Shown one piece after another: positions 29,397 through 61,692 of a stretch of DNA of 64,000 nt (position 1 is its first letter; every line of letters begins with the position of its first letter). The DNA is taken from positions 14,198,001 through 14,262,000 of the forward strand of contig NC_092801.1 in the NCBI RefSeq assembly GCF_918797505.1, in the 5' to 3' direction. This stretch comes from Bemisia tabaci (taxonomy: Eukaryota > Arthropoda > Insecta > Hemiptera > Aleyrodidae). A program made the position numbers and the translations under genes. Below the pieces are notes generated by a model, which searched no databases, was not told the origin of the DNA, and was given only the letters and a program-made list of their open reading frames with translations.

Positions 29397-29733
29397 TTAT
29401 TGGCGTGGTGGGTAAGGATATGGTTCATTAGGATCGGGTGGGAAAGTATACCGCTTGTACTCATCTTCGTCACAGCAATTTGCCCAGCAGCAGCAGCACA
29501 TGAGGCCAAGAGCCGCTTTATTCTTTCGGGCCCATCTTTTGAACCGAATCCCTATGTGAGCGGGTTTTTCCTCGTGTCTCGTGAGTCCTCGAGTGTCTAA
29601 CGTCCCTTCACCACCACCCACGCTTCTGGTTTCCAGCTGTCCCACGATGGGCGGATGTGCAGAGGACATCCGCCGTGCTAGGAGTTTCGGACAACACTGT
29701 CGAGGAGTTGAGAATCGCTTCAGCATCCAATGT
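29397..29733 (-). pseudogene. Poly-Cys secreted protein family, copy A, last exon
   Basis: Not a family I recognise. The exon begins after a TTGCAG acceptor. In the phase supplied by the first exon (30884-30913) it reads TLDAEAILNSSTVLSETP, homologous to copy C, but then meets a stop. One base out of phase, the same DNA encodes QLETR, a basic stretch (KRWARKNKAALG), CCCCWANCCDEDEYK and a Pro/Tyr-rich tail ending in TAA. The exon length (337) is not a multiple of three, so at least one frame change or an unseen splice is needed, and I call it a probable pseudogene. The closest paralogue is copy C. The poly-Cys is encoded by TGC/TGT codons. Alternative: a still-functional gene with a small intron I cannot place. 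Confidence 0.55.
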
Positions 29734-29943
29734 CTGCAATTAAATTTAATATTATATTGATAGGTGCTCAATGCTCGGAGGGTTATATTTCGACGGAGGG
29801 CAGTGTAGTTTAGGTGTCGTAGAGCGCTAGGGAATGCTAAAGCGACTTATTTGTGTGTTGTTGTTGTTTTAAACATTTAAGGTGTTTTAGCAAAGCTCGG
29901 CCATTGACACCTAGAGCAGAGATCACAAAAAGAGAGGTGCAAA

Positions 29944-30507
29944 AAATGGACCACTAGACAAGGTACAAATTTAAGCATTCTGATACATGTTTCTTAACCA
30001 GAATTTCACGTAGAGCACGATTCACTCAACGAAAACTAATAAAACAATTAAACTCCATACGAAGGTATTAACGTTTTTATTTCACATTGGTTACAAGGAA
30101 TTTGAACTGCCCGCTGACAAGAAACTCGAAGCTCTACGTGAGTCAAATCGCGCACTATAACGGTTTCAACAAGCTTCTCAATCGAATAATGTTCATTTCC
30201 CACCATGTGTTGTTCAAACTATAAGCAATTTGCTACAGCTGAGCCAAAGCGTCAAGATTGAGGTTGCCAGATTTTTGTATCGTAGAGGCTGCCATGATAA
30301 CGTTTAGCGCACGATGTGAATCACGCAGAGCATTGAGTTTTCATGAGCGCGGGTTGTTTGAATTTACGCATCAAGAATCATTAAATATCCTTGGAAGGAG
30401 TTTATTTCGGTCATTTGCGTTGTGCGCGTCGTATTTTACGTGAAATTTTAGTTAAGAAACATATACCAGAATGCTGAAATTCGTACCTTGTCTAGTGGTC
30501 CATTATG
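29944..30507. mobile_element. Inverted-repeat element, GGACCACTAGACAAGG ends, copy 2
   Basis: Both ends match the element at 7979-8526 (AATGGACCACTAGACAAGG and its reverse). It lies in the intron of poly-Cys copy A. Non-coding. Confidence 0.8.
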
Positions 30508-30883
30508 TATGGATGTATGCAAAAGAGAAAAGTTACGGTAGCCCGAAATACAATAGTGAAAAACACAGTAAAAACGGTGGGAAACAAGGCTAAACAAATG
30601 AAAATATTCATTCAATATTCATATTTATGAAAATATTCGCAGGACGTTTTGGTTGGTGACCTAAGCCATTATCAACTGCTAAAATAAATACAAAATTAAA
30701 CAAAAGTCTAAAATGACACAGCCACATTAAAAAGCGTGTGATCAGCCCCGAGGAAAATTAGGTCTAAGTATCAGTCCGGTCAATTGGCTGTTCTGATATT
30801 AGCTGCGCCTAGTGTTAGAGATTGGTGTTTACTTTTACTCTTGCCTATTCAATACTAATAATTGAGCGCAAATAATAACTTAC

Positions 30884-30913
30884 CAAACCAACAAAGTATA
30901 TGAGCCAAAACAT
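30884..30913 (-). CDS. Poly-Cys family, copy A, first exon (30 nt)
   Basis: ATG at 30913 begins ten codons, MFWLIYFVGL, followed directly by GTAAGT. Length, phase 0 and the leading MF-x-L pattern match the first exons at 45453-45482 and 56038-56067. The encoded peptide is the hydrophobic start of a signal peptide. The 5' flank up to about 31270 is homologous to that of copy C (shared CTGGTCAGTAGTTTGTG and GTTTAAAAGGA on the minus strand), so promoter and exon were duplicated together. Confidence 0.65.
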
Positions 30914-31497
30914 GATTGCGTAGCAGGGAGATTACGGTGGCCGTTTCAGAATGGTACAACTTTTTATCACCGTATACGAATTGTAATATATTACACAAGA
31001 TCACTTCTCGGTTTTGGTTGCACCAAGGTATATGATATTATAGGTGCCTTTGACGACGACAATACCACACAAACTATACCGATGAGTGTCCAATGGACGT
31101 TACCGGGGGGTCAGGGTGCACCTTTGTAAAATTTTGTAAAATGTTGTAATTTTTCCTCCGACTTGAACAATAAAGAAAAACCGCACAAACTACTGACCAG
31201 GATATGAGAGTCACTAGGCATGCCAACAAGCTACTCGTTCCTTTTAAACCTCATTCCCCCCCCCCCCCCCGAACGTCTGACGTTTGTTTCCAGGGAGCTC
31301 ATCGACGTGATGATGTTCGCCCAACGTAAAGGCAAGTGGATTTTGACATGCAGCAAATTTGTATTAAAAAATATGTTTATGAAAAAATTTCAATTATTCA
31401 ATTGAAAAAAAATAATTCAATTGCGACATAATCAAGTAAGTATTATGGGGTTGACGCGTTTCGAGCGGACGGCTCATCATCAGTGAGGGAAAAAAGT

Positions 31498-31662
31498 CAG
31501 TGGCGTGGTGTGCTTTGCGATGTATCGATTGTTATGTCATTTTAACCTATGGAAAAGGATCGATAAACAGGGAGTACGCAGCGAACACCTTAATAATCGA
31601 TTCTTTACCATAGGTTTAAATGGCATAACAATCGATAAATCGCAATTCACGCCACGCCACTG
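31498..31662. mobile_element. hAT-like MITE, CAGTGGCGTGG ends, copy 1
   Basis: 165 bp with ends CAGTGGCGTGGTGTGC and CACGCCACGCCACTG and the perfect 8-bp duplication AAAAAAGT (31490-31497 and 31663-31670). The palindromic interior is built around ATCGATTGTTATG. Non-coding. It lies in the shared 5' flank region of poly-Cys copy A. Confidence 0.9.
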
Positions 31663-32705
31663 AAAAAAGTCATGTTCTTTGTCATAAGCAAGCAGAAAAG
31701 GAAAGAATGAAATTTTAATGAACAAAAAATTGAAGGAATTGCGACAGATGACATTGTGAAACGCAGGAAAACCACGCCAATGAACTAGTCGGTTATCCGT
31801 GCGCTGCAATTCTGAGTACGACGTTTGCGTATGCTTTCTTGTAATTTGTGAGGTCATCCTTTACCAAAGATGTAAAGACGAAGTGCTCGACTGCTCGTAT
31901 CTATAAGCACAGGGAAAAAGTGAAGCCTGGTTTTGCGCTGGGTGCTTGTGTGAGTGTGTAAATGAGGGCGGGAATTCATGGCGGCAAACGGAAATTTGAT
32001 TTGAACTCGTCCTTTTGATTTTTCCACATTTCTTCTTCTAAACGTGTTTTAAATGCCTACAACGAATATATTAAAAAAGTTGGGACATTGATTTTTATAA
32101 TACACCTACTTTTGCTCGGTAACAGGCAGTAATCTCAGATAAAGTTAGTTTTTCCTCTGCTCATGGTGGTCCTGCCGGCTCAAATAGGCCGTTACAGTCC
32201 TAGATGACCGTTACTCCCGAATGAAATTAATTGGTCTATGACGGACCAAAAATAACCTAAAGCCAACAAAATATATGTTGGTAAGTGGATATGGGCAAAA
32301 ATCAACCTAGAATACTTTGTTTACGCAATTTTATTCAGTTCCCGCCCTACATTTGAATTTCAAACTTGTCCCGATTTTGCCGCCAATCCTCTAGCCGATA
32401 GTAGAGGTGGTTGGAAAGAAGCTTCATTTTTTGCTTTTAGCGCTCTGTCTTCACGTCTTTGTGCTTTACAAACGGGAGGACCAAAAACTTTAAGGGAAGA
32501 CAAAAATTGGAAAGCTTGAATATCTGGTTGGATGCAAAAAGTGTGCGTCTTCATTGCAATATTTAGATATCCTGGACTATGTGTTTTCTTCCATTAAGGA
32601 AAACGAACCAAAATGCTACCTCGCAGTTTTGTATTTTTTTTTTAGAATAGGTTACAAAAATTCACGTGTACTTTCAATGAAAACTTTTGATGGATATTCC
32701 TTTGC

Positions 32706-33645
32706 CCTGGTAAAAATTGGCAGTAGAATCTGTGTTCCAAATATCATAGACCTAAAGCTGGCTGTAAGATTTCCAATAGCTTCTGCAGTCGGCTGTACAA
32801 TTTCTTATAGCCTTTTATAGCCGATGGCGATTAAGCAACAGCCAGACAATAAAGTTTATGCTAAACGTTACTAAATACGGATACTAGGACTTTGTTAGTT
32901 TTTGGACTACCGCTCTCTTTTTGGGCCGTAGTATCTTGATTTATTTTGCGAGAAAAGCTCCGTACTTTTGAAGGATGCCTGTCATTCTTAATATGTTGGA
33001 GCGCTTTCAATTTCTTATGATACTGTGCAATACCTCTGGTGTGAAATAGTTGCTTCAGACGCCGTGGCACGCTGCGGCGCGGCGGGCGGGCAGGGAGCGC
33101 GAAACGCGCATTGGCGCCTACAAACCTAACAGGGATACTTCACGCATTGCGCAATGCGTGAAGTATCCCTGTTAGGTTTGTAGGCGCCAGTGCGTCGCCG
33201 CTCCGCTTTGTGTTAGGCTCTAATATTTAATCTCGCGGAGTCAGCGTTATTCAACTCATGATTTTGAAATGTTTGCACACTCTGTATGGACTATTCTCAT
33301 TTTAATTGATGAAAAAAAAAAAAATATGTTGCAAAGGAAAGTATAATGTGTGTTTTGTAAATATAAGGGTAGTTCCGTATCAAACTTACTGATTTCCAAA
33401 GCACACGAATTTCTACACAATTTCTTATAGCTTTTTATAGCTAATGGCGATAAAGTGGAAAGCCCGGCGATAGGAACTATAGCCCGACTGTACATTTTTT
33501 TATAGCTTCGTACAGCCCGGCTATATGATTTGCTCCGCTTTCTATAGCCAGCTATATGATTTTCAATAGCCTTTTTTAGTCGGCTATAAGAACTCCTATG
33601 GTATTTTGAAACGCAGCTCCTATCGCCAATTTTTACCAGGGTGAG
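32706..33645. mobile_element. ~940-bp element with CCCTGGTAAAAATTGGC ends
   Basis: The left end CCCTGGTAAAAATTGGC is mirrored by GCCAATTTTTACCAGGG. Inner inverted words are based on TTATAGCC/GGCTATAA. No transposase frame. It contains the perfect 76-bp palindrome at 33113-33188. The preceding 31863-32705 and following 33646-34327 stretches show nothing recognisable. Confidence 0.65.
33113..33188. repeat. Perfect 76-bp palindrome of the minisatellite unit
   Basis: Two 38-nt arms (GGCGCCTACAAACCTAACAG..ACGCATTGC) meet with no spacer and no mismatch. The sequence is the minisatellite core (GGCGCxTACAA..TACTTCACGCATTGC) folded head to head. Confidence 0.9.
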
Positions 33646-34327
33646 CAAATGCGGAGATTTAGAAAGGCGTAAACGGAGGTAGACATTTTTTGACTTACGT
33701 TAAAGTAAGCCTCCTTGTGTGGGTATGAAATACTCCCTGCGACGATGAAATCGGTAAGAAAGTTTATATCAAGGATACTTACATAGTTTTTTTCTCCGTG
33801 TACATAAAACTTGGGATGCGTTTCAACACACTTGGCGTCATCCTCAGTTGCGACTCCGTCGTCATATTTCCTTCAATAAAAACGAATTTACCGAGAGTAT
33901 TTTAAATCTTTTTCCTTAAATTTTTCGGGAACTTTTATTCACAACTCAATTTAAAATATCTAAGATTTGAAAAAATGTGCACGACTTTCTTCAAAATGTT
34001 ACAAAGGTGGGAGACCTTTGAACACCCATCAAGATTTACTTTGTAAATAGTCTGTAAGGTATGAACGAGAGTGTGAATGGAGTGCGAAAAGAAGAATGTT
34101 AAATAACTAAATTAAAAACGTATATGTTTTAATATTTCTAAAAAAGAGGACAGAGAATTTTATAATTCGTGTTCTTTAGATAATAATTTTATTAATCTAA
34201 CGTTACTCTGTAAATTTAATGCAATTAGTTCAGTTATAAATGATCTAGATAGATACAAGAAAGAACTCGAGTAGCTACGTTGTGCTCAATTTTTTTTATT
34301 CTTTTTTTTAAAACTTTCTTAAAATTG

Positions 34328-34555
34328 CACTGGAAAAAAACCACATTGGATCTAGAGTCCTGACTCTTAAAAACATCGACAAGAAAAAATACCCTTGCTT
34401 CAATCAGATTTAACTTTAAATCAAGAACCAGGCCTCTTAATTTGAGCGGATTTCCTTTTGTTTTAAGCTTAAATCTGATTGAATCAAGAGTCCTTTTTCT
34501 TGTCAATGTTTCAAGAGTTTGGACTCTAGATCCAATGTGTTTTATTCCAGCAGTG
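34328..34555. mobile_element. Palindromic CACTGG MITE, copy 4
   Basis: Left CACTGGAAAAAAACCACATT, right TTTTATTCCAGCAGTG (an extra CAG). Flanks are TG and TA, so the 2-bp duplication is imperfect here. Confidence 0.82.
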
Positions 34556-34570
34556 TACAAGTTTTATTTG

Positions 34571-34624
34571 CGGAAATTTGGCAAGTCTTGAAAGTTCAAA
34601 CGGCGTTCTTCCTCAGTTTGGCAG
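34571..34624. mobile_element. Right half of a CTGCCGTGC element
   Basis: GGAAATTTGGCAAGTCTTG, then CGGCGTTCTTCC, is a family right end; the left half is gone. The opposite half of another copy begins at 34895 (CTGCCATGCTAGGGAAGAAC) and stops near 34998, where a GGACGTAT-family left end begins. Confidence 0.6.
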
Positions 34625-35039
34625 TACTGCAATTGCTGCCCCGGTTTCTGAACTGGATCCATCATCGATACGTGGGAAGATTCCTAGGTTTGGCAGAGGT
34701 CCTACTTATTTCGGACTTTTGGCACGATTCTATACCATGATGTAATCCACGCGCTGGTATGATTGAGTGCTGCGTGCGCGAGTCTATTGAGTAACAAATC
34801 ACGAAACATTGATGTCTAGGATGCATTCAGAGCTTCGGCGAGTTGATTTCCGGAATCATGCATGGCCAAAAAATCGTCGCTTCGCTGACATAGGCTGCCA
34901 TGCTAGGGAAGAACATCGTATCAGCCCTCAAACGTTGCCAAATTTTCTATGATGAAATAGGAATTTTCAGGGCAATCAGTGAAAATTTCTCTGCCAATTG
35001 GACGTATTTCTATCAAACAGAACTATATGCCGGTGGGAA

Positions 35040-35539
35040 AGATTTGTTGTGCGCACTGTGTTTGGCGCAATGCGTGAAGTATTCATGCATTCTTGTAGGC
35101 GCTATCCGTTCTACGCTGACCTCAATAACCGCACTGAGTTTGATGCAATGCGTGAAGTATTCGTGCAGTCTTGTAGGCGCTAATATGTGGTACATGCCGA
35201 TCGCCGCGGCGAGGGCGTCTCCTTTTCATCTCAAGTCCTCGTCATCATTTCTCCCTAAGTCGCGGCTAAGTTCCAGGCCAAATTGTGAGTTTGGTTTCTC
35301 TCTTAACTCGAATCATTAAAGGTGCTGTCTCTTGTATCATTTCGACTAAAGTAGAATTTACTATACTCTCAGGAAATGAAAGATTTTGTAGCCTTTTCTC
35401 GTTTGTAATTTTTTTTCCAAATTCGATTTTTTTTATACTTACATTTAAAAATATTGCAAAATTTGCCGCCCCCTGTAGATTTTCCGCCATGGGCCGCGGC
35501 CTATGTGGCCACACTGGCCACCCCCTTAATCCGGCCCTG
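35040..35539. mobile_element. hAT-like CAGGGCCGG element with internal minisatellite, partial
   Basis: The right end CCTTAATCCGGCCCTG and GGCCGCGGCCTATGTGGCCA match the elements at 26674 and 54862. It retains two minisatellite units (about 35060-35190) at the same internal position as the 54862 copy. The left terminus is lost. Confidence 0.7.
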
Positions 35540-36233
35540 CGCGCAATGTAGTTAAGTCCTTATGTCGGAAGATGACGAAATGTCCCACCATCCACGAGGA
35601 AAGGGGCTTTGGTGGGCTGCTTATTAAATTTGCAACATTTTGAGGGGGAAAGAGGGTCTGAGCGTGCGGTACGAGGGCGTTACGGGGGAAGAAAGGGGGC
35701 CAGGGCAGCGAAACGTATAACGTTTGATAAAAATATAAATTCTTGATTTTGCTTAAAAGAAAGTCTTTTCACGTTCTTCTTCCTTTTTATCTCCTGCATT
35801 TCAATCGATTGTTTGAATGTTGAATAATGATTTTATATTATTAGTAAGATTTAAATTCTTCCTCTCGTTCCATTACTCTCCTTTTGCGGTGAAACACGTG
35901 ATGCGACTATATTCTGACCTTCAAGTATAGGTGATAGAGCATGACCACGAACAGAAAAGTACAAGGTCATTTTTCTGTTGACTTAGAGACTTTAACGCAG
36001 GAGTAGAAAAGTTGGATGGAGCGAAGCGCTTGATACAACTATTTCGGCTTCAAGTAGGTAACATTGCATATCCTAAAATTGAAGGAGAACATTGTCTCTT
36101 TTTCGCTGACTCGAAACCTTTGGACCGGGAGGGGAAGGGGGGCTTTTAAACTTGAAATATCACACTTTAAAGTTATGAAAAAACGAAATTCCAGGCCAAA
36201 CTGTTCGGTGTATTCGAGGAAAAAGTGTCATAT

Positions 36234-37142
36234 ATTGCCCATCAATCTCTTCCGAAAAATCTGGAACATTGATCTCTGAAATCTACGACGCATGAATTTT
36301 CCCTTGTTTTCAAGATACTTCCGATGAAAAATGAACCCCGTATTATTTTCCACAAGGGCCACAGAAAATGGGCACCAGGCAAATTAGCCAATCAGAAACG
36401 ACTCGTAAAAGTAAGAACCACCACTCGGCCCGCAATGGAGAAGTTGCATGTGTGAGGAATTTGCGATTTGACCATTGATTCTTCCGTAAAAGTTCGCGAG
36501 AAACACGATGGTGCCACTGGTTTTCTCTGAAATCAACTCCCAAACTCAAAAAAAGCTCTCAAGTTGAGGCCAAAATGGAGGGGATATCCCAACCTACCTT
36601 GAGAGTCCACCTCTTCATCAAGACAACCTCTCCATGCACAGATAGGGAGCAAATACATTAGCAGGGTTGCCGTGTTTTCAGTGTTAGAGTCACCAAATAA
36701 AGTGGCAGCCCTGTCAATGTATTTGCTCCCTTTCTTTGCATGGAGAGTTTGTCTTGATGTAGAGGTGGACTCTCAGGATAGCGTGGGATATCCCCTCCAT
36801 TTTGGCTTCAACTTGAGAGCTTTTTTTGAGCTTGGGAGTTGATTTCAGAGAAAACCAGTGGCACCATCGTGTTTCTCGCAAACTTTTACGTTATAATCAA
36901 CAGTCAAATCGCAAATTCCTCACACATGCAACATATCCATTGCCCATCAATCTCTTCCGAAAAATCTGGAACATTGATCTCTGAAATCTACGACGCATGA
37001 ATTTTCCCTTGTTTTCAAGATATTTTCGATGAAAAAATGAGTCCCGTATCATTTTCCACAAGAGCCGTAGAAAATGGGCATCAGGCAAATCAGCCAATCA
37101 GAGACGACTCGTAGAAGTAAGGACTACCAATCGGCCCGCAAT
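36234..37142. repeat. ~203-bp direct repeats bracketing a 510-bp palindrome
   Basis: The left repeat 36234-36435 and right repeat 36939-37142 are about 95% alike by eye (both start ATTGCCCATCAATCTCTTCC and end CGGCCCGCAAT). Between them sits copy 2 of the CAATGGAG palindrome (36432-36942). The repeats are in direct orientation, so they are not part of the palindrome. The flanking 35540-36233 and 37143-37617 stretches show only a fragment of the 19.9-20.6 kb unit (about 35990-36120). Confidence 0.85.
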
Positions 37143-37617
37143 TAATATCGCGGCTCTTGGTTTCTCTTTGATAATCAGGCTACCGGTAGATTAACCCTCA
37201 ATTCGAGCAGTTACGAGGATAATCTCAAATTTCAAAAGTACACATCGGTGGAGAGAAAATACCGAGCGTATCCCCAACTCATACTCATAAATGACTTATT
37301 CACGCGGCAACGGATCCATCCTCCATTCCTCCTCCGGAAAACAGCCGTAAAAGTGTTCGAGCTTGAGTCGCAGTCAACGCCATCTTCAGTACCTCGGGAG
37401 CTCATATCGGAATGCACTTGCTGCCGTCTTGGGCGGTGGTTTTGAAGAAAGTTGATTACAGAGTCGGTGTCGGCGATGACGAGTTGATCGATTCGCTTCT
37501 TCGGAGCCGTCAAAATGGGAGCCCCCAAGTTCACGGCTCCAGGATCGCGGTCTGTAATCCGGCGCGGCGGCCGCATCGGCTTCCGGCGAGTAGTTTCCTG
37601 AGTTGCCAGATTGTTAA

Positions 37618-43068: not shown

Positions 43069-43466
43069 TTAGTATAAAAAGACGTATTCGGGAGGATCAT
43101 CTTTTTCAAAATGATCTTTGTCACAGCAATGTGCCCAGCAGCAACAGCCAATCATGTGCAGTGCCGGTTCATTCTTCTTGGCCCATCCTTTGCACCGAAT
43201 GCCACAGTGAGGTTTTTTCTCGGCTTTTCTGGATTTTCGCGTCGTGCTGGGGGTAGGAGATCGTTGCGTCTGAGTTCTCTGCAATGTTGCATCAGGTTTA
43301 ACGGATTTAACGGGCTGGCGTAGCGACTTTATAAGCGAGCGAGGACGGATTCTACACCTCTGGTTTCCAGTTGCCCCACCATTCCTACCAAGGTCGAGTC
43401 GTCAGAGTCGATCCCAGTTTCGGGCAACGCAGTCCGGGTACTGAGAATGGCTTCAGTCTCAAAAAT
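43069..43466 (-). pseudogene. Poly-Cys secreted protein family, copy C, last exon
   Basis: After a TAGTTGCAG acceptor, the phase set by the first exon (45453-45482) reads IFETEAILSTRTALPETG.. and ..VGQLETRG, then stops (TAA) after about 45 codons. Shifted, the downstream part encodes a basic linker (RKSRKAEKKPHCG), then CKGWAKKNEPALHMIG, CCCWAHCCDKDHFEKDD and a stop. The exon length (398) is not a multiple of three. Similarity to copy A covers both the AIL/LETR and CCCW-CCD blocks, so the homology is real even though the frame is broken. An 80-nt intron between the LETR codons and the linker (AGAG/GTGTAG..TTGCAG) was considered but does not restore phase. Probable pseudogene. Confidence 0.55.
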
Positions 43467-44378: not shown

Positions 44379-44543
44379 CAGTGGCGTGGCGTGCTTTGCG
44401 ATATATCAATTGATTTGCCATTTAAACCTATGGTAAAGAATCGATTATTAAGGTGTTTGCTGCGAACACCCTGTTTTCCGATCCTTTTCCATATGTTTAA
44501 ATGGCATTTCAATCGATACATCGCAATTCACGCCACGCCACTG
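44379..44543. mobile_element. hAT-like MITE, CAGTGGCGTGG ends, copy 2
   Basis: 165 bp with perfect 8-bp duplication ACTCTGTG (44371-44378 and 44544-44551). Lies in the intron of poly-Cys copy C. Confidence 0.93.
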
Positions 44544-45146: not shown

Positions 45147-45311
45147 CAGTGGCGTGGCGTGCTTTGCGATATATCGATTGTTACGCCATTTAAACCTTTG
45201 GAAAAGGATCGATAAACAGCGTGCTCGCAGCGAACACCTTAATAATCGATTCTTTACCATAGGTTTAAATGGCAAAACAATCGATACATAGCATTTCACG
45301 CCACGCTACTG
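45147..45311. mobile_element. hAT-like MITE, CAGTGGCGTGG ends, copy 3
   Basis: 165 bp with perfect 8-bp duplication ATACGTCC (45139-45146 and 45312-45319). The duplication is the terminal ATACGTCC of the GGACGTAT element, so it landed at that element's very end. Confidence 0.93.
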
Positions 45312-45452: not shown

Positions 45453-45482
45453 CAGGGCAAGGAGGTATATCAGCCGAAACAT
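45453..45482 (-). CDS. Poly-Cys family, copy C, first exon (30 nt)
   Basis: ATG at 45482, ten codons MFRLIYLLAL, then the donor GTAAGT. Identical in length and phase to the first exons of copies A and B. The upstream minus-strand flank (to about 45990) is homologous to the flank of copy A. Confidence 0.65.
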
Positions 45483-46099
45483 GATCGGGTGCAACAGAAA
45501 CAACAAGTATATGTATTTTGCCACCGTTTCAGATTTACACAACTGTCTATTACCGACAACAAATTAAAATGTTATGTTACACAGATTCATTTCTCAGTGG
45601 TGGACACACCGAGGTCCATGGTATTCGGGTGCCTCTGACTATGACAGTACTGCACAAACTACTGACCAGAATATCGAAGTCAATATGCACGCTAGTAAGG
45701 CTATTCTCTCCTTTTAAACTCCATTTTCCCCAGTAGAATGTTGACGTCTGTACAGGGAGCTCACAACAGACTCACCCACGTAATGGTTTTGCCCTAACGT
45801 CCAACTAGGTTGCCTTGCTAGCCATGCGGTAAATGCATGTGATAAAAAATTTGTGGCGAGAAAGCTTTTCTCCTAAATCACGGCTCTTGGTCGAAGTGCA
45901 AAGAGACAAAAAAGGCAGTTTTAATGGACAAAAAATTGTAGACTTGACTCTTCTGACACTGTGAAGCTACGCAGGACAGTATTAGTGTTTCACACTTCAA
46001 AAATAATTTCTTCGTAGACGAGTGACATGTTCACGGATGTCATACAGAAAAAACGGAGGTGTTCGCAGTTCGGCCATCTTGGCTTTTTTGATGACGCAC

Positions 46100-48033: not shown

Positions 48034-48197
48034 TAGTGGCGAGGCGTGAATGATCGATTATCGATATTTTCCCATTTGAAAATACGGTAAAGAATCGATT
48101 AGTAAGGTGTTCGCTGCGGACACCCTATTAATCGATCCTTTTCCATGGTTTTAAATGGCAGATCAGTCGATATATCGCAAAGCACGCCACGCCACTG
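48034..48197. mobile_element. hAT-like MITE, CAGTGGCG family, copy 4
   Basis: 164 bp with the first base mutated (TAGTGGCGAGGCGTG) and perfect 8-bp duplication TTTGCGAT (48026-48033 and 48198-48205). Confidence 0.9.
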
Positions 48198-48596: not shown

Positions 48597-48754
48597 CTGT
48601 GGCGTACTTTGCGATGTATCGATTGACCTGCCACTTAAACCTATGGAAAATGGTCGAAAACAGGGTGTTCGCATCTAACACCTTAATAATCGATTCTTTA
48701 CTAAAGCTTTAAATGGGTAGATATCGATAATCGATCATTCACGCCTCGCCACTG
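48597..48754. mobile_element. hAT-like MITE, CAGTGGCG family, copy 5
   Basis: Ends CTGTGGCGTACTTTGCG and CACGCCTCGCCACTG. No duplication is visible, so it is older or has been rearranged. Bases 48755-49504 show nothing recognisable. Confidence 0.75.
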
Positions 48755-49504: not shown

Positions 49505-50383
49505 CATATTTAAATAACAACTTGCATGTTCTGCCGTGATATCGAAGAAAGCAGAAAGTATAAAATTTTCAAAATCGAGTTTCCTTCAAAATTTGTCGAG
49601 TCTCTTTTAGATGAAATCACTCTTATAGATAAAACAGCAAAATTCATCTTCATTGTAAGAAAACGAGAGACATGAGAAAGCCGTGAGTGCGGGAAAAATT
49701 CCGCAGTTTCAGGCAAGACAGCAGTAAGTGACATTATTCTTCCAAGGAGCCAATGAAATCAGTGCTTTCAAGTAAAGTGCCGCCCTCTTCTGCCAATTTC
49801 AAACCTGAAAATGTGTTTGTTGTGTGTCCAAAACGCAACCATGAAAGCATGCAGAAGAAAACACTTACGGCTATCTTGCCCAACACCAGCCTAACATGAA
49901 TATGAAAAATACCTTAAGGTGATTCGATGGACGCCATATTTTGTGTCAGAACGGCATGCGATATATCGCATCAATTGGTTCCATTTTTTCAGATACTCGT
50001 CATTTTTCTCCAATTTTGAGATCGCAATTCTGTTGTCAGGAGACTAAAGCACTCACTTACCAATTTTAACAAAGAAATTTAACGTAATAGAAGCGGGTTT
50101 TTTTTTAGAGAGAATATATCGCATCGAGTGCAGTTTCGATATCAGTATCGAATGAAATGTTTTCTCTGTGAAAAAACCACGCCTTTATTACGTTGAATTT
50201 CTTTGTTAAAATTGGTAAGTGAGTGCTTTAGTCTCTTGACAACAAAATTGCGATCTCAAAATTAGAGAAAAATGACGAGTATAGCTGAAAAAATGGAGCC
50301 AATTGATGCGATATATCGCATGCCGTTCTGACACAAAATATGGCGTCCATCGAATCACCTTAATGTAATTGAAATAAAATCGG
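49505..50383. repeat. 3'-flank segment of the poly-Cys locus, copy II
   Basis: The DNA immediately downstream (minus strand) of gene B's stop codon. It is homologous to 37846-38640 and 63237-64000, and is interrupted by a TTAA element at 49918-50359. Confidence 0.65.
49918..50359. mobile_element. TTAA-flanked palindromic element, copy 2
   Basis: 442 bp, same ends as the copy at 23677, TTAA on both sides (49914-49917 and 50360-50363). The other two 3'-flank segments lack it and act as empty sites. Confidence 0.85.
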
Positions 50384-50809
50384 TTAATTTTTGATCTTAG
50401 AATGCTTAGGGCTCACGGTATAATCTATGACGTCACCAGGTTTATCGAGCGCGCGAGCCACACAGCAACAGCAACAGAAGTGAAAAAGTATCTCCTTACT
50501 GTGTAAAAATTTTTGCGCCTTCAACCTCCTTTTCTCTGCCTTTGACGGTTCAACCCGATGCTGCTCTACCCTCTTCTTCCAGCTCTCGGTTTTCCAGGGT
50601 AGTACCTCAGTGCCGTCGGAGTTCCATTCCTTATCGTGAAGTGGGTCATATGGGACTCGCGGCGGTGGAGGGGGAGGAGGGTTACCTTTGGGCTCGCCTT
50701 TTTTCCTACCTGCTCTGGTTTCTAGGCGTTCCCGCGACTCCTGCGAGGTTGCCTCGTAACGGGGCGATGTTAAGTGCTCCACCGGGATGAGAATCGCTCC
50801 TGTGGTAGT
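50384..50809 (-). CDS. Poly-Cys secreted protein, copy B, exon 3
   Basis: I do not recognise this family. The exon (426 nt, 141 codons plus TAA) starts after TTTCTGCCCGCAG and continues the phase-0 frame of exon 2. It reads TTTGAILIPVEHL, LETRAGRKK, a Pro run (seven prolines) leading to VPYDPL, a Lys/Arg-rich helix-like stretch (VEPSKAEKRRLKAQKFL), ILFHFCCCCCVARALD and a short polar tail. The PYD, V-E-x-P-S-K, AQKFL and five-cysteine blocks match copy D in order, which supports real coding. With exons at 56038-56067 and 52054-52152 the product is 184 residues with a signal peptide, so it is probably secreted or membrane-anchored through the hydrophobic-Cys segment. The Cys run is coded by mixed TGC/TGT. 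Function unknown. Introns are 1.2 and 3.9 kb and full of transposons. Confidence 0.72.
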   Translation of the reverse strand, partial: TTTGAILIPVEHLTSPRYEATSQESRERLETRAGRKKGEPKGNPPPPPPPRVPYDPLHDKEWNSDGTEVLPWKTESWKKRVEQHRVEPSKAEKRRLKAQKFLHSKEILFHFCCCCCVARALDKPGDVIDYTVSPKHSKIKN

Positions 50810-52053: not shown

Positions 52054-52152
52054 TTCAATTAATTCCTCCGCGCTTGAGAATGTCTCACTATTATCGTTAT
52101 TTTTATCTGACCTGCTTTTTGATTGCGAATTGATTTCACTAAACAATAAGAA
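52054..52152 (-). CDS. Poly-Cys secreted protein, copy B, exon 2
   Basis: 99 nt, 33 codons, between a strong acceptor (TTTTTCTTTCTTTTTCCAG) and the donor GTAAGTATT, phase 0 at both ends. It encodes FLLFSEINSQ, which completes the signal peptide begun by exon 1 and supplies a likely cleavage region, then a Ser/Asp/Asn/Glu-rich linker (SKSRSDKNNDNSETFSSAEE). Without splicing, an in-frame upstream ATG at 52194 would also give a plausible start (MTKLRIIYFSFFFQ), but it lies across the pyrimidine tract, so I prefer the spliced model. Confidence 0.7.
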
Positions 52153-53306: not shown

Positions 53307-54861
53307 AAATGACCCGTTGGTCGAGCTAGAGTATCTTTTATTCTTTAGAGACAGTATGGGCAGGACTCTGCGCGTGGAAACTTTTAGAACCCAGATAGAC
53401 AGTGGAGAAATTTGGATGAGAGAGATTAGAGGTTGAGGTCTGACACTTTTTTGGAGGGGGGGGGGGGGGAGCTTGTGTCTTACCTACGCTGGTGTCAAAA
53501 ATGAATTTGCTAATACCCCAATCCATACAATCTGACACTGGTACGAAAGTAAGTACTGCAGCGTATGTTTTCTCATCAAACTGTCACGCACAACACGTTG
53601 AGCGAATAAAAAACCAAAACGAACCAAAAATATTCCATTCGTGGGAAACAGACGTCCATAGCGTATAAACAAACACTAAATTCAAATTTTTCGGTCGCAA
53701 AAAATCCATCATTAATGTAGGCAAAATTATGCATTGAAATTAACCTGTACGCTAGACAATTCAATGGCGCCTAATTTCATGCTCATTTTCTCCCTATTTT
53801 GAGTTTTACACAAGGTACCTTTAATCGTGCCAAAAAAAGTGTTGGCAGTAATATACCAAAGTTAGCTCAGTTGAGTGGACTTTGGCCTTCTCCTAGGCGG
53901 GAAGTATGAATTAAGGTATACAAGAACCATTATTTCTAACTTATGAGTTGAATCTGTAAATTTTTAAAAGGTTCATCCTACTCTTCCTAAAATTCCAATA
54001 ATGAGCCAAGCTGGTAAATCAAACACAAGGTGTTGGAAGAGCGCGCCATAAGCATATATCTGCTTAGTCACATTGAGGCTTATCCTGGTTTTTAGTTATT
54101 GAACGAATTATAGAAACGCCTTAAAATAATTGTGAGTTATATTCATACCGCCAAAAACATTTCCATGTCACCTAAAATAAAATGATATCCCAATTAATAG
54201 ACGCCAAGTAAAATGTATTGACATTACTTTAAAGTTTCTCCTGTCTTCAACATTACTATCGGAAAAACGCAAGATATAGATAAAAGAATTTTAAAAAAAA
54301 AAATCGATTTTAATTTATCGATATTTTTCGTAGTGCAAAGCAACTTCTGTCATCACTGCGTTTGGTTGATTTACGGTCAGCCGCAAATAAAGTGAACATT
54401 AATCTGACCCAATGAGAGAGTTTAAGAACAACTCATAGGCTTTGAAACAACGGGACCAAGTTTAACGAAAATAAATTTATCAATTTCAGAGGCTAAAATA
54501 GCAATTTCGGCCTCATTCACAATCTTGGATTTGAAAAATTTCGAAAATTGAACTGAAAATTCGAGTTGTCGGTAGAAAAATACCTCCTAGTATAAAGTTT
54601 TACGAAAGTCGATAGAATAGGAGCCAATATGGCATTTTAGGCCATATCCGCCATCGTGGATTTGTGAATAAGGAAAAGTGACTGTAAATTCGAGTTTCTC
54701 GTCGAAAAATACCCTCTGGTACCAAGATTTACGAAAATCGATACAACAGGAGTCGAGATACGGGGTGCAGGGATGACGTGTCTCCGTGAAGGAGGAGAAG
54801 AACACGGCGAAACCAACGATTAGGGTCTCGTGACGTCATAGCAATGATTGGTGGGTCGCTG

Positions 54862-55580
54862 CAGGGCCGGATTAAGGGGTTGGCCACATGAGCCGCGGCC
54901 CATGGCGGCAAATCTTTGGGGGGGCGGGGGGCAAATTTTGCAATTTTTTAAATGTAGGTATAAAAAAATTCGGATTTAGAAAAGAAAATTTCAAACGAGA
55001 AAAGGCGACAAAATCTCTAATTTTCTGAGGGTATAGTAATTTTTACTTTAGTCGTCTTTCAGTGATACCAGAGAGAGCACCTTTAATTAGTCGAGTTAAG
55101 AGAGAAACCAAACACGCAATTTTGCCTGGAGAGAAATGATGACGAGAACTTGATATGAAAAGGAGAAGCCATCGGCGCGGCGATCGGCATGAAACACATA
55201 TTAGCGCCTACAAGACTGCACGAATACTTCACGCATTGCATCAAACACAGTGCGGTCACTGCGGACAGCGTGAAACGGATAGCGCCTACAAGAATGCATG
55301 AATACCACACGCATTGCGGCAAAGACAGTGCCATCAGCGTGAGACGCGTAACGCCCACAAGACTGCGTGAATACTTCACGCATTGCGTCAAACACAGTGC
55401 GGTCCGCGAGGCGCTGCGGCGGAAGTTAAAATCATGAATCCACATTTATGTTTGTTCTTTCATAATTTTTTCGTTCATTTCTTATGAATGAAAGGCCTTG
55501 TCCACACAGCCATAGGTTTACGAAACTTAACTTTCGCGCAAAGTTCCGTGAACTTTTGCTAGTAGTGTTGACAGGGATTT
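54862..55580. mobile_element. hAT-like CAGGGCCGG element with three-unit minisatellite
   Basis: It begins CAGGGCCGGATTAAGGGG and is collinear (reverse orientation) with 26674-27214 up to the point where the minisatellite (about 55190-55410, three units of ~66-70 bp) interrupts it. It then rejoins the element through GGCCTTGTCCACACAG and stops near GTTGACAGGG, lacking its other end. Confidence 0.78.
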
Positions 55581-55894
55581 CCAAAAAGGAATTCTTTTGG
55601 CGGGTAGTGAAAAAAAGTTGGGAAATGGGCTGACTTTAATGTATAAAAAATTTCAGGCCAAAATTCCGATTTCTTGCTGGCGCACCTAAGCCTGAAAGGT
55701 CTAAATTTTGAAATTAGACATTTGAGGCTTGATGTACATGGTTTTCCATCGGAATTAATTAGTCTTGTTCTGATCCATTGTTATTTGACACTGACACTCT
55801 AATACACACAAAACACATTTTATCTCTGTAAAGGATGATATCGTACACGTTTTTTTCCCTAGCCCCCTTTATCTTCATCTTCTTAGGGGACTTT

Positions 55895-55970
55895 TGTTTC
55901 TGTTTGTTTGTTTGTTTGTTTGTTTGTTTGTTTGTTTGTTTGTTTGTTTGGTTGTTTGCTTGTTTGGTTG
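55895..55970. repeat. (GTTT)n microsatellite
   Basis: A run of TTTG/GTTT units with a few substitutions near its 3' end, in intron 1 of gene B, about 70 bp from the exon 1 donor. Confidence 0.95.
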
Positions 55971-56037
55971 TCCCTTTAGTTACCTTACTGGATTATTGAA
56001 AATTCAATCATAAAGCTATCAACTTAATTTTACTCAC

Positions 56038-56067
56038 CAAGAAGAGATAGATTAATAGCCGGAACAT
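56038..56067 (-). CDS. Poly-Cys secreted protein, copy B, exon 1 (start)
   Basis: ATG at 56067, ten codons MFRLLIYLFL, then GTGAGTA. Phase 0. Joined to exon 2 it gives an uninterrupted hydrophobic core (MFRLLIYLFL + FLLFSEINSQ) of typical signal-peptide length. The same 30-nt exon exists at 30884-30913 and 45453-45482, which is the main reason to believe it. Confidence 0.7.
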
Positions 56068-56122
56068 TGCTTCGGACCTGCGTTACCCGTAATTAAATGT
56101 CTTTTTCAGGTCGAACTAAAGC

Positions 56123-56144
56123 ACTGACGTATACAAGATTTATA
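56123..56144 (-). promoter_or_regulatory. Possible TATA box and TCAGT initiator of copy B
   Basis: On the minus strand TATAAA (56144-56139) precedes TCAGTGC (56127-56121), about 60 bp upstream of the ATG. TCAGT is the arthropod initiator word. The spacing (about 19 bp) is shorter than the usual ~30, so this is tentative. Copies A and C have CTGGTCAGTAG upstream of their first exons. Confidence 0.3.
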
Positions 56145-56440
56145 AGTTCTTTTGCCCAAAATATGTTAAAGTTAAGAAAATCTATTTCTTAGAGGCGAGG
56201 AGTGTACCTTTTGGCTCGAGAACGCACCAAAAATCACTGAGCAGGCAAGGATTAAAGTCAATGTAAAATCAATCACTCTAATTAATTTTTTTTGAAATTC
56301 TCTACTTTTTTAACCGTCTGGCGCAAATTTCCTACTCTCATATTTTCCCCCGTTTACGCATTTGAATTTTTTTCGCCGCATCGGCGTTCCCTAAACGAAG
56401 GATAACCCCATTCCGAGGTTGCTATATCGACTCGAACAAT

Positions 56441-56578
56441 TGGACTATATTTTGCAATTCCGAACTATAATTTCTGGCTCAGGTGAGAAAACACTTATGT
56501 GCACAGGGAAACTAATGGTACATACGTTGTTCCTAAACTGAGCCAGAAATTGTAGTTCGGAATTGCAAAATGTAGTCC
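56441..56578. repeat. Palindromic element, GGACTACATTTTGC family
   Basis: GGACTATATTTTGCAATTCC, then GAACTATAATTTCTGGCTCAG, is mirrored by CTGAGCCAGAAATTG, then GGAATTGCAAAATGTAGTCC. Relative of 42158-42301. Confidence 0.82.
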
Positions 56579-56579
56579 A

Positions 56580-56793
56580 CACTGGTTTAAAAAACCCCTT
56601 GGACCAATACCGCATTGCATTGACTTATTAAGAGTGCAGTTTCTTGTCGCCAGATTTAAGAGTCTTGAACTATTGTTTCAAGCGAATTTAGCATATTGAT
56701 TCAAGCGGGTTTTGCATTGAAACAAGAGTTCAGACTCTTAAATCCGGCGACAAGAAACTACACTCTTGAACCAAGAGGTTTTTTTTACCAGTG
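56580..56793. mobile_element. Palindromic CACTGGT element
   Basis: 214 bp, ends CACTGGTTTAAAAAACCCCTT and AAGAGGTTTTTTTTACCAGTG, related in layout to the CACTGG MITEs, including a CAGACTCTT-type inner word (GTTCAGACTCTTAAAT). Flanked by CCA on both sides (56577-56579 and 56794-56796). Confidence 0.75.
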
Positions 56794-57063
56794 CCATTCA
56801 ACTTTTTACAGGAATATGACTGTGCGATTCTTTTTTAAAATGTATTGATATTTTCACGCAATTGGAGCATAGACGCTTTTAGTGGTTACCTCGCCACGAC
56901 GGCTCTCTATTACATTGGTTTGGTCAACAAAAAAATGACAATGACATAACCTCTTTCAATGCTGACAGTGAGTAAAAATGGGACTGCATTTTGCAATTAA
57001 GAACTACTATATCTTTAGGTATAGCCCATTCAAAAAAGGGCCTGTATGCATATGAATACTATA

Positions 57064-57316
57064 CTGCCGTGCTAAGGAAGAACGCCGTATGAACTTTCAA
57101 GAGTTGCCAAATTTCCGCCGATAAAATGTTTATTTTTGAGGAAAGCTATGAATATTTTTCCTTGGAATTTTCAGGAAATTTAGGTAAAATTGCATACAAA
57201 ATGATCTGAAAACTTGGATAAAAAATGTTAACAAATTTTTCCGAAAAATCGGAATTTATTGAAGAAAATTTGGCAACGCCTAAAGTCTCATACGGCGTTT
57301 TTCCTTAGCACGGCAG
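57064..57316. mobile_element. CTGCCGTGC element, best intact copy
   Basis: 253 bp, ends CTGCCGTGCTAAGGAAGAAC and GTTTTTCCTTAGCACGGCAG, TATA on both sides (57060-57063 and 57317-57320). It is inserted in a GGACTACATTTTGC-type element (about 56982-57376). Confidence 0.9.
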
Positions 57317-57567
57317 TATAAGTACGTATGCTCTTTCTAAATTGAGCCGGGAATTGTACAACCGTATTATAAAATGTAGTCCAATCGATACTCATCGCTT
57401 TTCTGTGATGTTTAGCGTTTATATCAGTGTTTAGTGTGGATATGTCCAACAGTATTCGATAAAAATAAAATCGTGACTAAAATCCCGCTACTTTGAGTTG
57501 CAATTACGATCTCTCGGCTAGAAATCAATAACATGTAAAATTTGACACTTCAACTTTGTCACCGTAA

Positions 57568-57826
57568 TGTCGTCGGTGAAACTGCAAAGATGTGTATCTC
57601 GGTCGCGGTGTTCCAAAATCTCCGCTCCTATTTTATTTTTTAAAAGGAGACTGAATCAACATCATGGTTTGAAGTTTTCACAGAATATTCTTCATAAAGA
57701 AAGGAAAACTGAACTTTTTTTAAAAAAATGACGCGCAGTAGTTTTCCACGTAGAAAATAAAACATGACATGAAGTTTGCAACGTCGCAAACCAAGATACG
57801 CATTTCCGCAGTCTCATCATCGATGT
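57568..57826. mobile_element. Uninterrupted relative of the 11044-12825 host element
   Basis: Left TCGTCGGTGAAACTGCAAAG, right CAACGTCGCAAACCAAGATAC, then GCAGTCTCATCATCGATG. The sequence corresponding to the retrotransposon insertion point (GACTGAATCAACATCATGG at about 57650) is continuous here. Confidence 0.8.
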
Positions 57827-57867
57827 GGGATCTGGTGCTAATTTTTTGCCGCCGTAACAATCAGAGG

Positions 57868-58438
57868 CAGATCCAGCAGTTTGGCAACACCGGATTTCCT
57901 CCATTTAGACCTATGCTAAATAATCGATTCTTGTCGGAGCGCACCTGTAGAGTACCTATATTGAGAGAGTATGGCTACTGGGGTTACCACCTCTGATTGG
58001 CCCAGCCATCTTAGGCTGAATGGAGCCCTTAGGACCCAAACATGGCGGACGCCATAAATTAATGTAATGCAAAATGACTCAAAATGTAGTTTTCTTTGCT
58101 TATCGTAACGAGAAATTGACTCAAATGCACTCTTGCGACTTCTTTACATATTTTAAAGACTAATCGTGTGCAATTTTTGAGAAAAATTATCTTAGATGTA
58201 GTAAGGTTGGCAGCAAGTACGGTTGGTGATAACCGTCAAAAGTTGGCAATGACCCCCCTCCCATCCACAAAAACCAAAACAAAGCACCGCCATTTTTGGG
58301 TCCTAAGCCTCTCCATGGGGCCCAGTGGCCATACTCTCTCAATATAGGTACTCTACGCACCTGGCCCCTACAAGAATCGATACATTTCCATAGATTTAAA
58401 TGGAGGAAATCCGGTGTTGCCAAATTGCTGGATCCGCC
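57868..58438. repeat. ~570-bp palindrome, GGCAACACCGGATTTCC arms
   Basis: GATCCAGCAGTTTGGCAACA, then CCGGATTTCCTCCATTTA, is mirrored by TAAATGGAGGAAATCCGGTG, then TTGCCAAATTGCTGGATC. The arms also share GAGTACCTATATTGAGAGAG and its reverse. No gene. Bases 58439-59840 after it contain AT-rich DNA in which I see nothing. Confidence 0.8.
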
Positions 58439-59839
58439 AATGATAGTAATTGATTACTCAAAGTAAGAGGAGCGCAAGGAAGGAATGAAGTATGTCTCAT
58501 CCGACGTTGTTCAAGTTGTGCAAACTTTTAGTTCCGCTCGTTCAAAGGACAAAGACCCCGATCGATCATGATTGACCCAGGAAATATTTTAAGGCATGAG
58601 AAAAATTTGTGATCGAAAATTTGGGGAAGGTTTGTGTTCCGTTGCCTTCCGGGAGATTTATAAAATTTCACGATTCGCACAACGTTTGAGGTAACTTCTC
58701 CCTCGAATACCACATAAGTAAGGAACATGGTTTGCCAAAAATGAGTAGGGAACATGTTTTGCCGCGCGAGCGTTCAGGAGGAGCACGTGAACAATTTTTT
58801 TAGATCCGGAAAAAAAATTAGTCAACTTCCGTGCATTAGAGGAAAAAAGTCTCGTTTCTAACCTTAGGGAAAGCGAGCTCGGGAGCCATGTTTTTTCCGG
58901 GGACATATCGCGCACGGCTCGTGAAATTTTCGAGCTTAATGGATTTTAGACACTTTTGCCCCAGCATCATATTTTATTTTCGCGCTCTTGGAGTAAAAAA
59001 AGCGTAGCTCGAAAGTCCGTACAACAATCAGATACTTTTTTTTCAGATTGTTTTCTCTTTTCCTGTTACCGCACGGAATTGATTCTTTCCTGGGCAAATT
59101 CCGACTCCACACGGAAAAAACATGTTGAATTTCGATTAATGGTGTACCTCCCGGAAATGATCTCAACGCACGTGGAGGACAATGGGGGGGGGGATGCTCG
59201 GGGGGAGGGGGTTGGTTGCATTAATAAAAACTTTGTACATCATGTCTCAAATAACAAGTGTGATTTATTCCGTAACACTATTTTGCGCTCAATCAAAAAT
59301 TAAAAGTAAAGTCAATGCTTAATCTTAAAATACTGCAGTTGCCGTTAATAAAACATTAAATTGATTTATTAGATCATTCAGAAATTGAAAGTAACATCTA
59401 AAACTACACGCACTCGAGCTAAGAAGAAATATTTCCAATAAATTTAGTCCAAATGAACCACGGAATACACAGCTGAAATGTACATTGTCCCTTTTGATTT
59501 CATTCATATTCACACGCTCACGCACCTGATACCATTTTGCATGAATAGGGTCAATTGATTGCAAATAATTTTAATCAGCTTTAAAAACAACATATTATGA
59601 AAGCTTAACGCTAGCAGAGAACAGGAATGGCTAAGTGGCTAATGAATGGAGGGTGCAAGAGGGCCCTAAGGGCTCTGAAGACCTTCCAAAAAACACGTTC
59701 CTTATAGGTACCTCCTTCTATCCTACTAAAATATTTGTGTAAATTTATCATGACGCTCCATCTAAAAATGTAGCGAGGTATCCGGATCTTAATGGAGGCG
59801 AAATTCTCGGTTTTCGCAACGGATTCAGCATAATTGCTG

Positions 59840-60340
59840 CACCAGTAGACCGATTATTAAAATGGATAGCCGAAGCTATGGACAAATGAGAACCGAGGAG
59901 AATGGAGCGCCCCTATAGGTTGCAACGGGTGGTCACTATAGACTACGTGGGAAAAAGATTAACCACAACTAGAAAGTCGCTCGAGGGTTACTGTCGGGAA
60001 GCCTATTACTTACCGGCTTTGATCATTACAACCACCCGTTTCAACCAAGAGGATCGCTCAATTTTCTCTTTCTCTAATTTGTCTATCTTTCGTCCTTTCC
60101 CGCACGAAGGAACGTATCTCTATTCCATGGTTGCGAAATCGAATCAAAGAATTCAATTTTTAACGAGAAAAAACCTGCATAGTTCTCATCGAAAATTTGT
60201 CTGATTTCTCCATTAGAGCAGAGGAAAAATTAGTGGTATTTTCAGTCAGAAAGTCACCAAACTTTCCCAGTAAAAATGCAATTTGCGTAGTAAAATCGGC
60301 AACATTGTAATGGAGTTACCTTCGGTCGTGGGGAAAACGA
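59840..60340. repeat. Decayed inverted elements
   Basis: Contains a GACCGATTATTAAAATGG / TTGTCTATC pair resembling 25122-25393, and a GAACGTATCTCTATTCC..AACATTGTAATGGAG pair resembling 25452-25695, in the same order as at 25.1-25.7 kb. Non-coding. Confidence 0.5.
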
Positions 60341-60575
60341 CGAGTTGTGTACATCAATTTCGATTTTCAGGCAAATTTCTTACACAGATTACAAAGCTAG
60401 GAGTGCATTTCAAACTTTGCCGATGCGCTCTTCGTGATTTTCGAGACATTAACTGATAGAAATAACTCTTATTTTTGCTCTAGCAAAAGTTTGCAATAGG
60501 CCCATTATCAACGTGTCCATGCTAGACCCACATAGGCACTTTACCTGAAACGCTCTTACGAAAAAAAAGAGGTAC

Positions 60576-61240
60576 TGTAGTAACATCCTGGATGTTAAAA
60601 AAATGTGCGACAATTCTTGGATGTCGTCATTACCACTCTGGCTGTGAAAGTAACATCCTCGGATGTTACTTTTACATCCTATTATGCTACGTTAACTGCC
60701 AGAGTGTTAAGGTGATTCGATGGACGCCATATTTCGTGTCAGAACGGCATGCGATATATCGCATCAATTGGTTCCATTGTGTCAGCTACTCGTCATTTTT
60801 CTCCAATTTTGAGAACGCAATTCTGTTGTCAGGAGACTAAAGCACTCACTTACCAATTTTTGACAAATCAATTCAACGTAATAAAGGCGTGGTTTTTTCA
60901 GAGAGAAAATATCGCATTCGAGTGCAGTTTCGATATCAGTATCGAATGCGATATTTTCTTGCTGAAAAAACCACGCCTTTATTACGTTGAATTGATTTGT
61001 CAAAAATTGGTAAGTGAGTGCTTTAGTCTCCTGACAACAGAATTGCGATCTCAAAATTGGAGAAGAATGACGAGTAGCTGAAAAAATGGAACCAATTGAT
61101 GCGATATATCGCATGCCGTTCTGACACAAAATATGGCGTCCATCGAATCACCTTAACTGCCAGAGTGTTAATGGCAACATCCGAGAGTTGTCGCACATTT
61201 TTCCAACAACCGTAACATCCGAGATGTTACTACATGCATC
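60576..61240. repeat. GTAACATCC palindrome carrying a TTAA element
   Basis: Left GTAGTAACATCCTGGATG, then GTGCGACAATTC, then TACCACTCTGGC; right GCCAGAGTG, then GTTGTCGCACATTTTTCC, then AACATCCGAGATG. The TTAA element at 60711-61152 is inserted in its right arm. Confidence 0.75.
60711..61152. mobile_element. TTAA-flanked palindromic element, copy 3
   Basis: 442 bp, same ends as copies 1 and 2, TTAA on both sides. In addition a perfect 19-bp direct repeat TTAACTGCCAGAGTGTTAA (60692-60710 and 61153-61171) brackets it, longer than the TTAA duplication alone. Confidence 0.85.
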
Positions 61241-61281
61241 TTTTCTTTCGTTGCGAACGTACGCAAAAAAAAAAACCCGAT

Positions 61282-61692
61282 TCAATGACTATCGCACCAG
61301 TGCGATATGCAGCAACAGCAGCATAGGTGCAAAAGGGGTTCGATTATCTTCAGGAATTTCTGGGCCCCTTCTACTCGTTTTAAGTCTTTGCTCTTGGGTC
61401 GCTCCACTGGGTTGTCACGCCAATTCCGATAAGCCTGGGTATCATAATACGGGATTCGCTTGCCGGTTGCTGTGTACTCCTCGATGTCATACGGCGGCAT
61501 TGGGTTGGGGTCGCGGTCCGGTGAAAGCGTGGGGTAGAACTGACGACCCCTCGCCTTCACATAGCTGGCGTAGATTGACAGGCAACACCCCCTATCGCTT
61601 CCTCTCGTTTCCAGAGCTCCGTGCGAGTTCGGGTCGGAATCAGGTTGGGAAAAGTTTCCCGCTGGGATGAGGATTGCACCCGGGTCGGAGAG
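61282..61692 (-). CDS. Poly-Cys secreted protein, copy D, last exon
   Basis: Function unknown. The exon (411 nt, 136 codons plus TGA) begins after CACTGTTTTCAG and reads LSDPGAILIPAGNFSQPD, LETRGSDRGCCL, a Tyr/Pro-rich middle (FYPTLSPDRDPNPMPPYD), RNWRDNPVERPKSKDLKRVE, AQKFL, LLHLCCCCCISHWCDSH and stop. Order and spacing match copy B, and the frame is intact from acceptor to stop. The C-C-C-C-C..C-D end resembles, superficially, cysteine-rich membrane-anchoring modules such as CYSTM or palmitoylation sites (inference). No first exon is visible between here and 64000; it may be beyond the window. The acceptor region has been copied six more times upstream. Confidence 0.68.
   Translation of the reverse strand, partial: LSDPGAILIPAGNFSQPDSDPNSHGALETRGSDRGCCLSIYASYVKARGRQFYPTLSPDRDPNPMPPYDIEEYTATGKRIPYYDTQAYRNWRDNPVERPKSKDLKRVEGAQKFLKIIEPLLHLCCCCCISHWCDSH

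Follow-up and report, generated by a model that had tools for sequence, protein, structure and literature searches.

A dispersed family of predicted small secreted proteins with cysteine-run tails in the whitefly Bemisia tabaci

In a stretch of 64,000 nucleotides (nt) from the genome of the whitefly Bemisia tabaci, here called the window (C9:14198001-14262000), four short exons on the minus strand lead into a run of consecutive cysteines, and the question arises whether these exons belong to a genuine gene family and what its proteins could do. A preliminary description had proposed them as the last exons of four genes, A (29397-29733), C (43069-43466), B (50384-50809) and D (61282-61692), each reading in phase 0 from a splice acceptor through an AIL motif and the residues LETR to the cysteine run. 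The coordinates, the acceptors, both motifs and the cysteine runs were recovered in our analysis; the unbroken frame from the acceptor to the cysteines was found in B and D, and it is interrupted in A and C. It must be stressed that these exons represent a dispersed gene family, which is real and larger than first described, and that two of the four exons of the window are broken.

The four exons form one family, since profiles constructed from three of the C-termini recovered the fourth in every case among 2,890 open reading frames (ORFs) of the window (expectation values, E, of 2.8e-11 for A, 4.2e-13 for C, 1.5e-6 for B and 1.1e-7 for D), with the top ORF outside the family at E 0.12-0.41. 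The division into an A/C and a B/D subfamily was likewise upheld. Runs of at least four cysteine codons occupy five overlapping positions on the minus strand, which fall into three loci (A, B and D), and one position on the plus strand; 60 simulated windows contained 0.13 such runs on average and 2 at most. The tail of C has only three consecutive cysteines. The assembly-wide list of members was obtained with B, C and two of the newly found genes, F and G, as queries against the window's own assembly (610 Mb, 151 contigs). It holds nine last exons at four places, seven of them open and two frame-broken (A and C), and nine should be taken as a lower bound. Five members lie beyond the window at three other places, all with open last exons: E (C10:28387730-28388107), F (C10:28420129-28420506), G (C10:3615865-3616260) with its neighbour I (C10:3604423-3604731), and H (C9:31255875-31256267), which is of the A/C type. 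The single TGA marked in the genome matches to F and to H is the stop codon of the respective gene, and the cysteine runs of A and of E are coded by TGC throughout. Apart from three fetched family loci, a search through 10,387 ORFs from the window and its 230 kb flank with the profile of the four tails added no member.

Across the members the last exons span 102-141 amino acids (aa). In D, E, F and G the head reads A-I-[LI]-I; they also have in common L[ET]TR, a block C-L or C-C with [LI]-Y after it, the pattern P-x-x-[ST]-P-[DE]-R-[DE], as well as an end consisting of five cysteines, three residues and W-C-[DN]. The family is apparently lineage-restricted, small, predicted to be secreted and modular, and what makes it unusual is the cysteine-run tail.

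At the other end of the genes, a 30-nt, phase-0, hydrophobic first exon beginning with MF or ML lies upstream of six of the nine members: A (MFWLIYFVGL), B (MFRLLIYLFL), C (MFRLIYLLAL), E (MLRIVLCALS), G (MFRLLFCLLW, the counterpart of the B exon on another contig) and H (MFWLIYLVGL, detected with a slightly looser donor pattern). The three in the window, already pointed out in the preliminary description together with their good donors, are all on the minus strand, with none on the plus strand; they are not chance products, since no such exon appeared in 100 simulated 64-kb single strands. The same scan came up empty on both strands of 230 kb of neighbouring DNA, and also on the opposite strand of three 10-kb upstream stretches. 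Candidates upstream of F (57, 39 and 87 nt) and of D (39 and 51 nt) were weak and were not accepted. For three members a second exon is predicted, with a length of 99 nt in B, of either 66 or 105 nt in G, and of 105 nt in I, where it resembles the longer form of G. The candidates of G and I sit in the place corresponding to exon 2 of B. No second exon reached the threshold in A or C, and E offered only a weak, hydrophilic candidate.

The predicted B gene runs on the minus strand from its first exon (56038-56067, phase-0 donor) through exon 2 (52054-52152, phase 0-0, hydrophobic start, acceptor score 10.9, donor score 8.7), which was confirmed as the best-scoring 0-0 internal exon of the gene, to a last exon of 141 aa and a stop, where the AIL head, LETR, a basic proline-rich middle and a CCCCC tail follow each other in a single open frame. 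The last exon of D is also a single open frame, of 136 aa and a stop, with CCCCC and then WCD near the C-terminus; D is 52% identical to F on contig C10 over 124 aa (E 1.7e-19). Beyond the predicted signal peptide the proteins are hydrophilic and proline-rich, basic in B (net +8 in the last exon) and neutral in D. B, C and D have the hexamer AATAAA within 500 nt past their stop, and A does not. Directly downstream of B and D there is a repeat element (50208-50363 and 61003-61156) whose two copies are 95.5% identical, and a similar stretch was seen by eye after the stop of E (L032:945-1010); this element marks either a favoured insertion site or a piece of the duplicated unit.

A and C are paralogues with 71-88% identity by segment (5' region, first exon, AIL, LETR and cysteines). 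The AIL frame of A stops at 29610, with LETR and CCCC in another frame, and the AIL-LETR frame of C stops at 43331, with the CCC tail in another frame. Small extra introns that would join the AIL and cysteine frames were considered and rejected: the splice sites were weak in C, and in A there was none worth the name. A and C are therefore read as frame-broken, and an assembly error may be an alternative source of the breaks. H is an intact gene of the A/C type, with the same 5' region, the related first exon given above and six cysteines; thus the A/C subfamily has a single-exon layout, and A and C are broken copies in this assembly. The first exons of A and C are at 30884-30913 and 45453-45482 (donor score 10.8 in C), both on the minus strand. 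The 5' region of A (30914-31261, minus strand) is common to C and H and carries a TCAGTA element 283 nt before the ATG, and that of C (45483-45731, minus strand) is 71-77% identical to A and 74-75% to H, with the TCAGTA element 183 nt before the ATG. A repeat element lies upstream of both A and C (83-91% identity).

The members differ also in the way in which heads and tails are combined. G and I are neighbours, 11 kb apart, and are 90% identical over 126 nt around the acceptor and the head and 88.5% identical in the second exon region; past the common head they diverge, and I ends in a different cysteine-rich tail, CFCCCLNLLC. Upstream of D, and running into it, a tandem array on the minus strand (61627-63055, 6.9 copies according to Tandem Repeats Finder), which the preliminary description had overlooked, contains six head copies with acceptor and AIL, followed by the real head of D. 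The units measure 188-216 nt; six are head-only, and the first unit does not share the phase of the rest. The idea that the units are conserved as coding copies was examined, and the count of 11 synonymous, 16 non-synonymous and 0 stop changes, with 23-28% synonymous changes expected, is not decisive. Of five poly(A)-type hexamers looked for in the array, TATAAA alone was present, with seven occurrences, of which six keep the repeat spacing. Beside E there is a near-palindrome (L032:795-1321, 92% in the opposite-strand self-comparison), which carries the end of E, cysteine run included, as an inverted copy. The changed tail of G and I, the head array of D and the inverted partial copy of E together suggest, therefore, that head and tail seem to duplicate and change apart from each other, and the joint between them seems to lie near LETR.

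Such partial and broken copies raise the possibility of a decaying orphan family, consisting mostly of relics without present function. For the genes D, E, F and G, the ratio of non-synonymous to synonymous rates (dN/dS) was 0.31-0.41 in five pairwise comparisons, as rough estimates at dS of about 1.5-1.7. The comparison of B with D, which had been suggested as a check, gave 0.335 in one alignment and about 0.25 in another, rough values at a saturated dS of 2.1 and from a protein-guided alignment that is biased, a codon-shuffled D being equally low in 1 of 300 cases. The other three pairs of B (with E, F and G) were saturated in dS. In total, dN/dS was below 0.5 in six of the seven measurable pairs, and it stayed below 1 in all seven. 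The cysteine part of A and C gave dN 0.41 and dS 0.90 (Fisher P 0.058). The E-F pair, at 0.70 (Fisher P 0.15), was indistinguishable from neutral, and this recent pair may indeed be neutral; neutrality of the whole family, which had been named beforehand as grounds for abandoning it, was not observed. Decay would agree with the frame breaks of A and C, with the E-F value, with the head-only copies upstream of D and the inverted partial copy beside E, and with the first exons not located for D, F and I. However, seven of the nine last exons are open, dN/dS is 0.31-0.41 at dS of about 1.5-2.1 among several members, and the splice structure is retained at unlinked loci, and we regard a family composed mostly of relics as very unlikely. 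The earlier interpretation of a diverging, partly clustered family with hydrophobic N-termini and cysteine-run C-termini was borne out, with six of the seven finite dN/dS values at 0.31-0.41, except that half of the four genes on which it was based are frame-broken.

Relatives of the family were sought outside this genome as well. Among 5.77 billion proteins no relative was found at E up to 1, either with B and D as queries (218 candidates) or with parts of A and C (8 candidates), in a search by shared words, which a very diverged relative could escape. As a control, a reverse transcriptase of the window matched B. tabaci proteins (P0014, P0045) in the same database. Since D and F match each other at E 1.7e-19 within one genome, an annotated F-like protein should have surfaced, and we infer from these sequence comparisons that the family is probably not annotated in the protein sources searched. 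Pfam revealed no recognisable domain in four window ORFs and five members (H and I not included), nothing of substance came from Pfam, NCBIfam or PDB, and Rfam gave no match. No relative was detected in viral contigs with the B/D and A/C queries or in prokaryote contigs with the B/D query, and a repeat 31-mer of the window was absent from both kinds of contigs. No literature title concerned such a family; the literature was covered by titles and passages, hence we do not claim that the family is unpublished, and the papers cited here are represented by such passages. The available part of PMC10357772 holds nothing on effectors. As far as these searches reach, the family is undescribed.

What could be the function of such proteins? 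The reading which we tentatively prefer, as a possible rather than a probable one, is that of a dispersed family of predicted small secreted proteins whose tails, mostly runs of four to six cysteines, likely connect separate chains by disulfide bridges. The hydrophobic 10-codon first exon together with the next exon would provide a cleaved signal peptide, and the proteins would leave the cell via the secretory path. Adjacent cysteines pair poorly with each other, and in the oxidising environment of the secretory path they might bridge different chains. A parallel could be seen in sulphydryl oxidation, the proposed hardener of aphid gel saliva. According to the passages of PMC3462764, the aphid gel sheath loses its structure under a reducing agent, so that for a sap-feeder one would naturally think of a protein, salivary or structural, that cross-links. 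The site of action would be the saliva, which is the weakest step of this model.

Several points weigh against this disulfide model. Secretion, cross-linking and the salivary role are all functional steps that we infer, the gene models of two or three predicted exons come from splice-site scans, and the signal peptide was predicted by hydropathy alone. The reading frames of A and C are broken in this assembly, E and F do not depart from neutrality, and the tail of I interrupts the cysteine run (CFCCC). No 30-nt first exon was found for F in 10 kb and no first exon for I in the approximately 2.6 kb read; for D no convincing first exon appeared when the 20 kb beyond the window were scanned loosely, and 220 kb beyond the window contained zero 30-nt first exons of the family kind. 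The AlphaFold2 model of the last exon of B was poor (mean predicted local distance difference test score 58.1), with a helix into the cysteines predicted at low confidence, thus it offers no structural support and was unfit for a fold search. A bolder form of the model, in which one secretion head of a modular whitefly family is joined to changing cysteine-clump tails and the heads of the D array serve as alternative terminal exons, switching between tailed cross-linking products and short tail-less ones, appears to us highly improbable.

The surroundings of the cysteines are hydrophobic (best 15-residue hydropathy window 1.1-2.0 in A, B, C and D), and this would be compatible also with proteins that are never released, which an uncleaved N-terminus or the hydrophobic cysteine tail would hold in insect membranes, as in CYSTM proteins. 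These are described in the passages of PMC8049917 as short proteins with a cysteine-rich membrane C-terminus, and the whitefly proteins resemble them in that respect; however, the Arabidopsis PCMs given there have 71-82 aa, compared with 102-141 aa in the whitefly last exon alone. No CYSTM match was obtained at E up to 1 with the four window ORFs and five members, the whitefly family has a predicted N-terminal signal, and the hydrophobic nature of the first exons speaks rather for passage into the secretory path. Permanent membrane anchoring is hardly probable in our view. Clustered cysteines in predicted secreted proteins could bind metals instead, and a precedent exists in PCHTP of the Trichinelloidea, a cysteine-dense, lineage-restricted poly-cysteine protein with its signal peptide in exon 1, reported in the passages of PMC2954182 to bind iron, nickel and zinc. 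That protein differs from the whitefly family in its size of 48 kDa, its two domains of spaced cysteines and its tail of seven histidines, whereas the whitefly last exon codes for consecutive cysteines near the end; compared by eye with the description in those passages, the whitefly translations contain neither a histidine tail nor spaced poly-cysteine domains. In the same passages the Trichinella protein is located in the cuticle and tissues and is not excreted, and metal binding seems to us unlikely for the whitefly family.

The combination of a retained head with a changing tail brings up a further possibility, namely that the proteins are secreted in the saliva as injected effectors, enter plant cells and are S-acylated at the cysteine run by host enzymes, which would direct them to host membranes. 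The family is divergent, partly clustered and predicted to be secreted, and its hydrophobic tails would suit such a fate. A close comparison is with the KQY/KHI cassette families of candidate effectors of the pea aphid, another sap-feeding hemipteran, which combine a conserved N-terminal secretion region with a divergent C-terminus and small exons in the passages of PMC7495047; the six similar first exons and the G/I pair reveal the same combination of conserved head and divergent C-terminus in the whitefly. In contrast, KQY1a consists of 37 small exons over 45.7 kb (PMC7495047, same passages), and the whitefly family of two or three predicted exons. The 10-codon first exon and the cysteine-run tail are particular to the whitefly side of this comparison, which was made by description and not by sequence, and neither the KQY or KHI residues nor many miniature exons were found, the residues of the first exons and the predicted exon number being different. 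Bicycle genes of aphids contain many very small internal exons, unlike the whitefly members with a located first exon, which have two or three exons according to the splice-site scans. They are otherwise alike in forming a highly divergent, putatively secreted family of the Hemiptera; the passages of PMC9168663 assign CYC motifs to bicycle proteins and report them in aphids, phylloxerans and scale insects, and not in three more basal outgroups. Inspected by eye, the whitefly translations do not contain the literal string CYC, which falls short of the complete definition of the motif. Against an effector role, the passages of a review (PMC13297706) describe the salivary effectors of B. tabaci as relatively slow to evolve, which does not favour this role, and all seven finite dN/dS values are below 1; we consider it rather unlikely.

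Besides the family, the window contains two related reverse transcriptase ORFs, at 6771-7778 (97% identity over 334 aa to the database protein P0002) and at 11126-12622 (89% identity over 230 aa to the B. tabaci protein P0045). A short element containing GGTAAAGAATCGATTATTAAGGTGTTCGCTG occurs at 31579-31609, 44432-44462, 45228-45258, 48086-48116 and 48672-48702, these five matches (at most 3 mismatches) standing against 0 expected. Tandem repeats of about 70 bp at 1632-1819 and 55202-55404 have the same core by eye, of the ACTTCACGCATTGCG type, and more copies of this type are visible near 33.1 and 35.1 kb.

If the genes are expressed, a whole family is seemingly missing from the protein set of a much-studied crop pest and virus vector, and this gap is perhaps owed to the 10-codon first exon and the small divergent exons, which may have defeated the gene predictors. 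Seven open members and six first exons are available for a test against existing RNA sequencing data. The change of tail on a common head in G and I, together with the head array of D, offers a small system in which the change of the business end in secreted protein families of sap-feeders could be followed.

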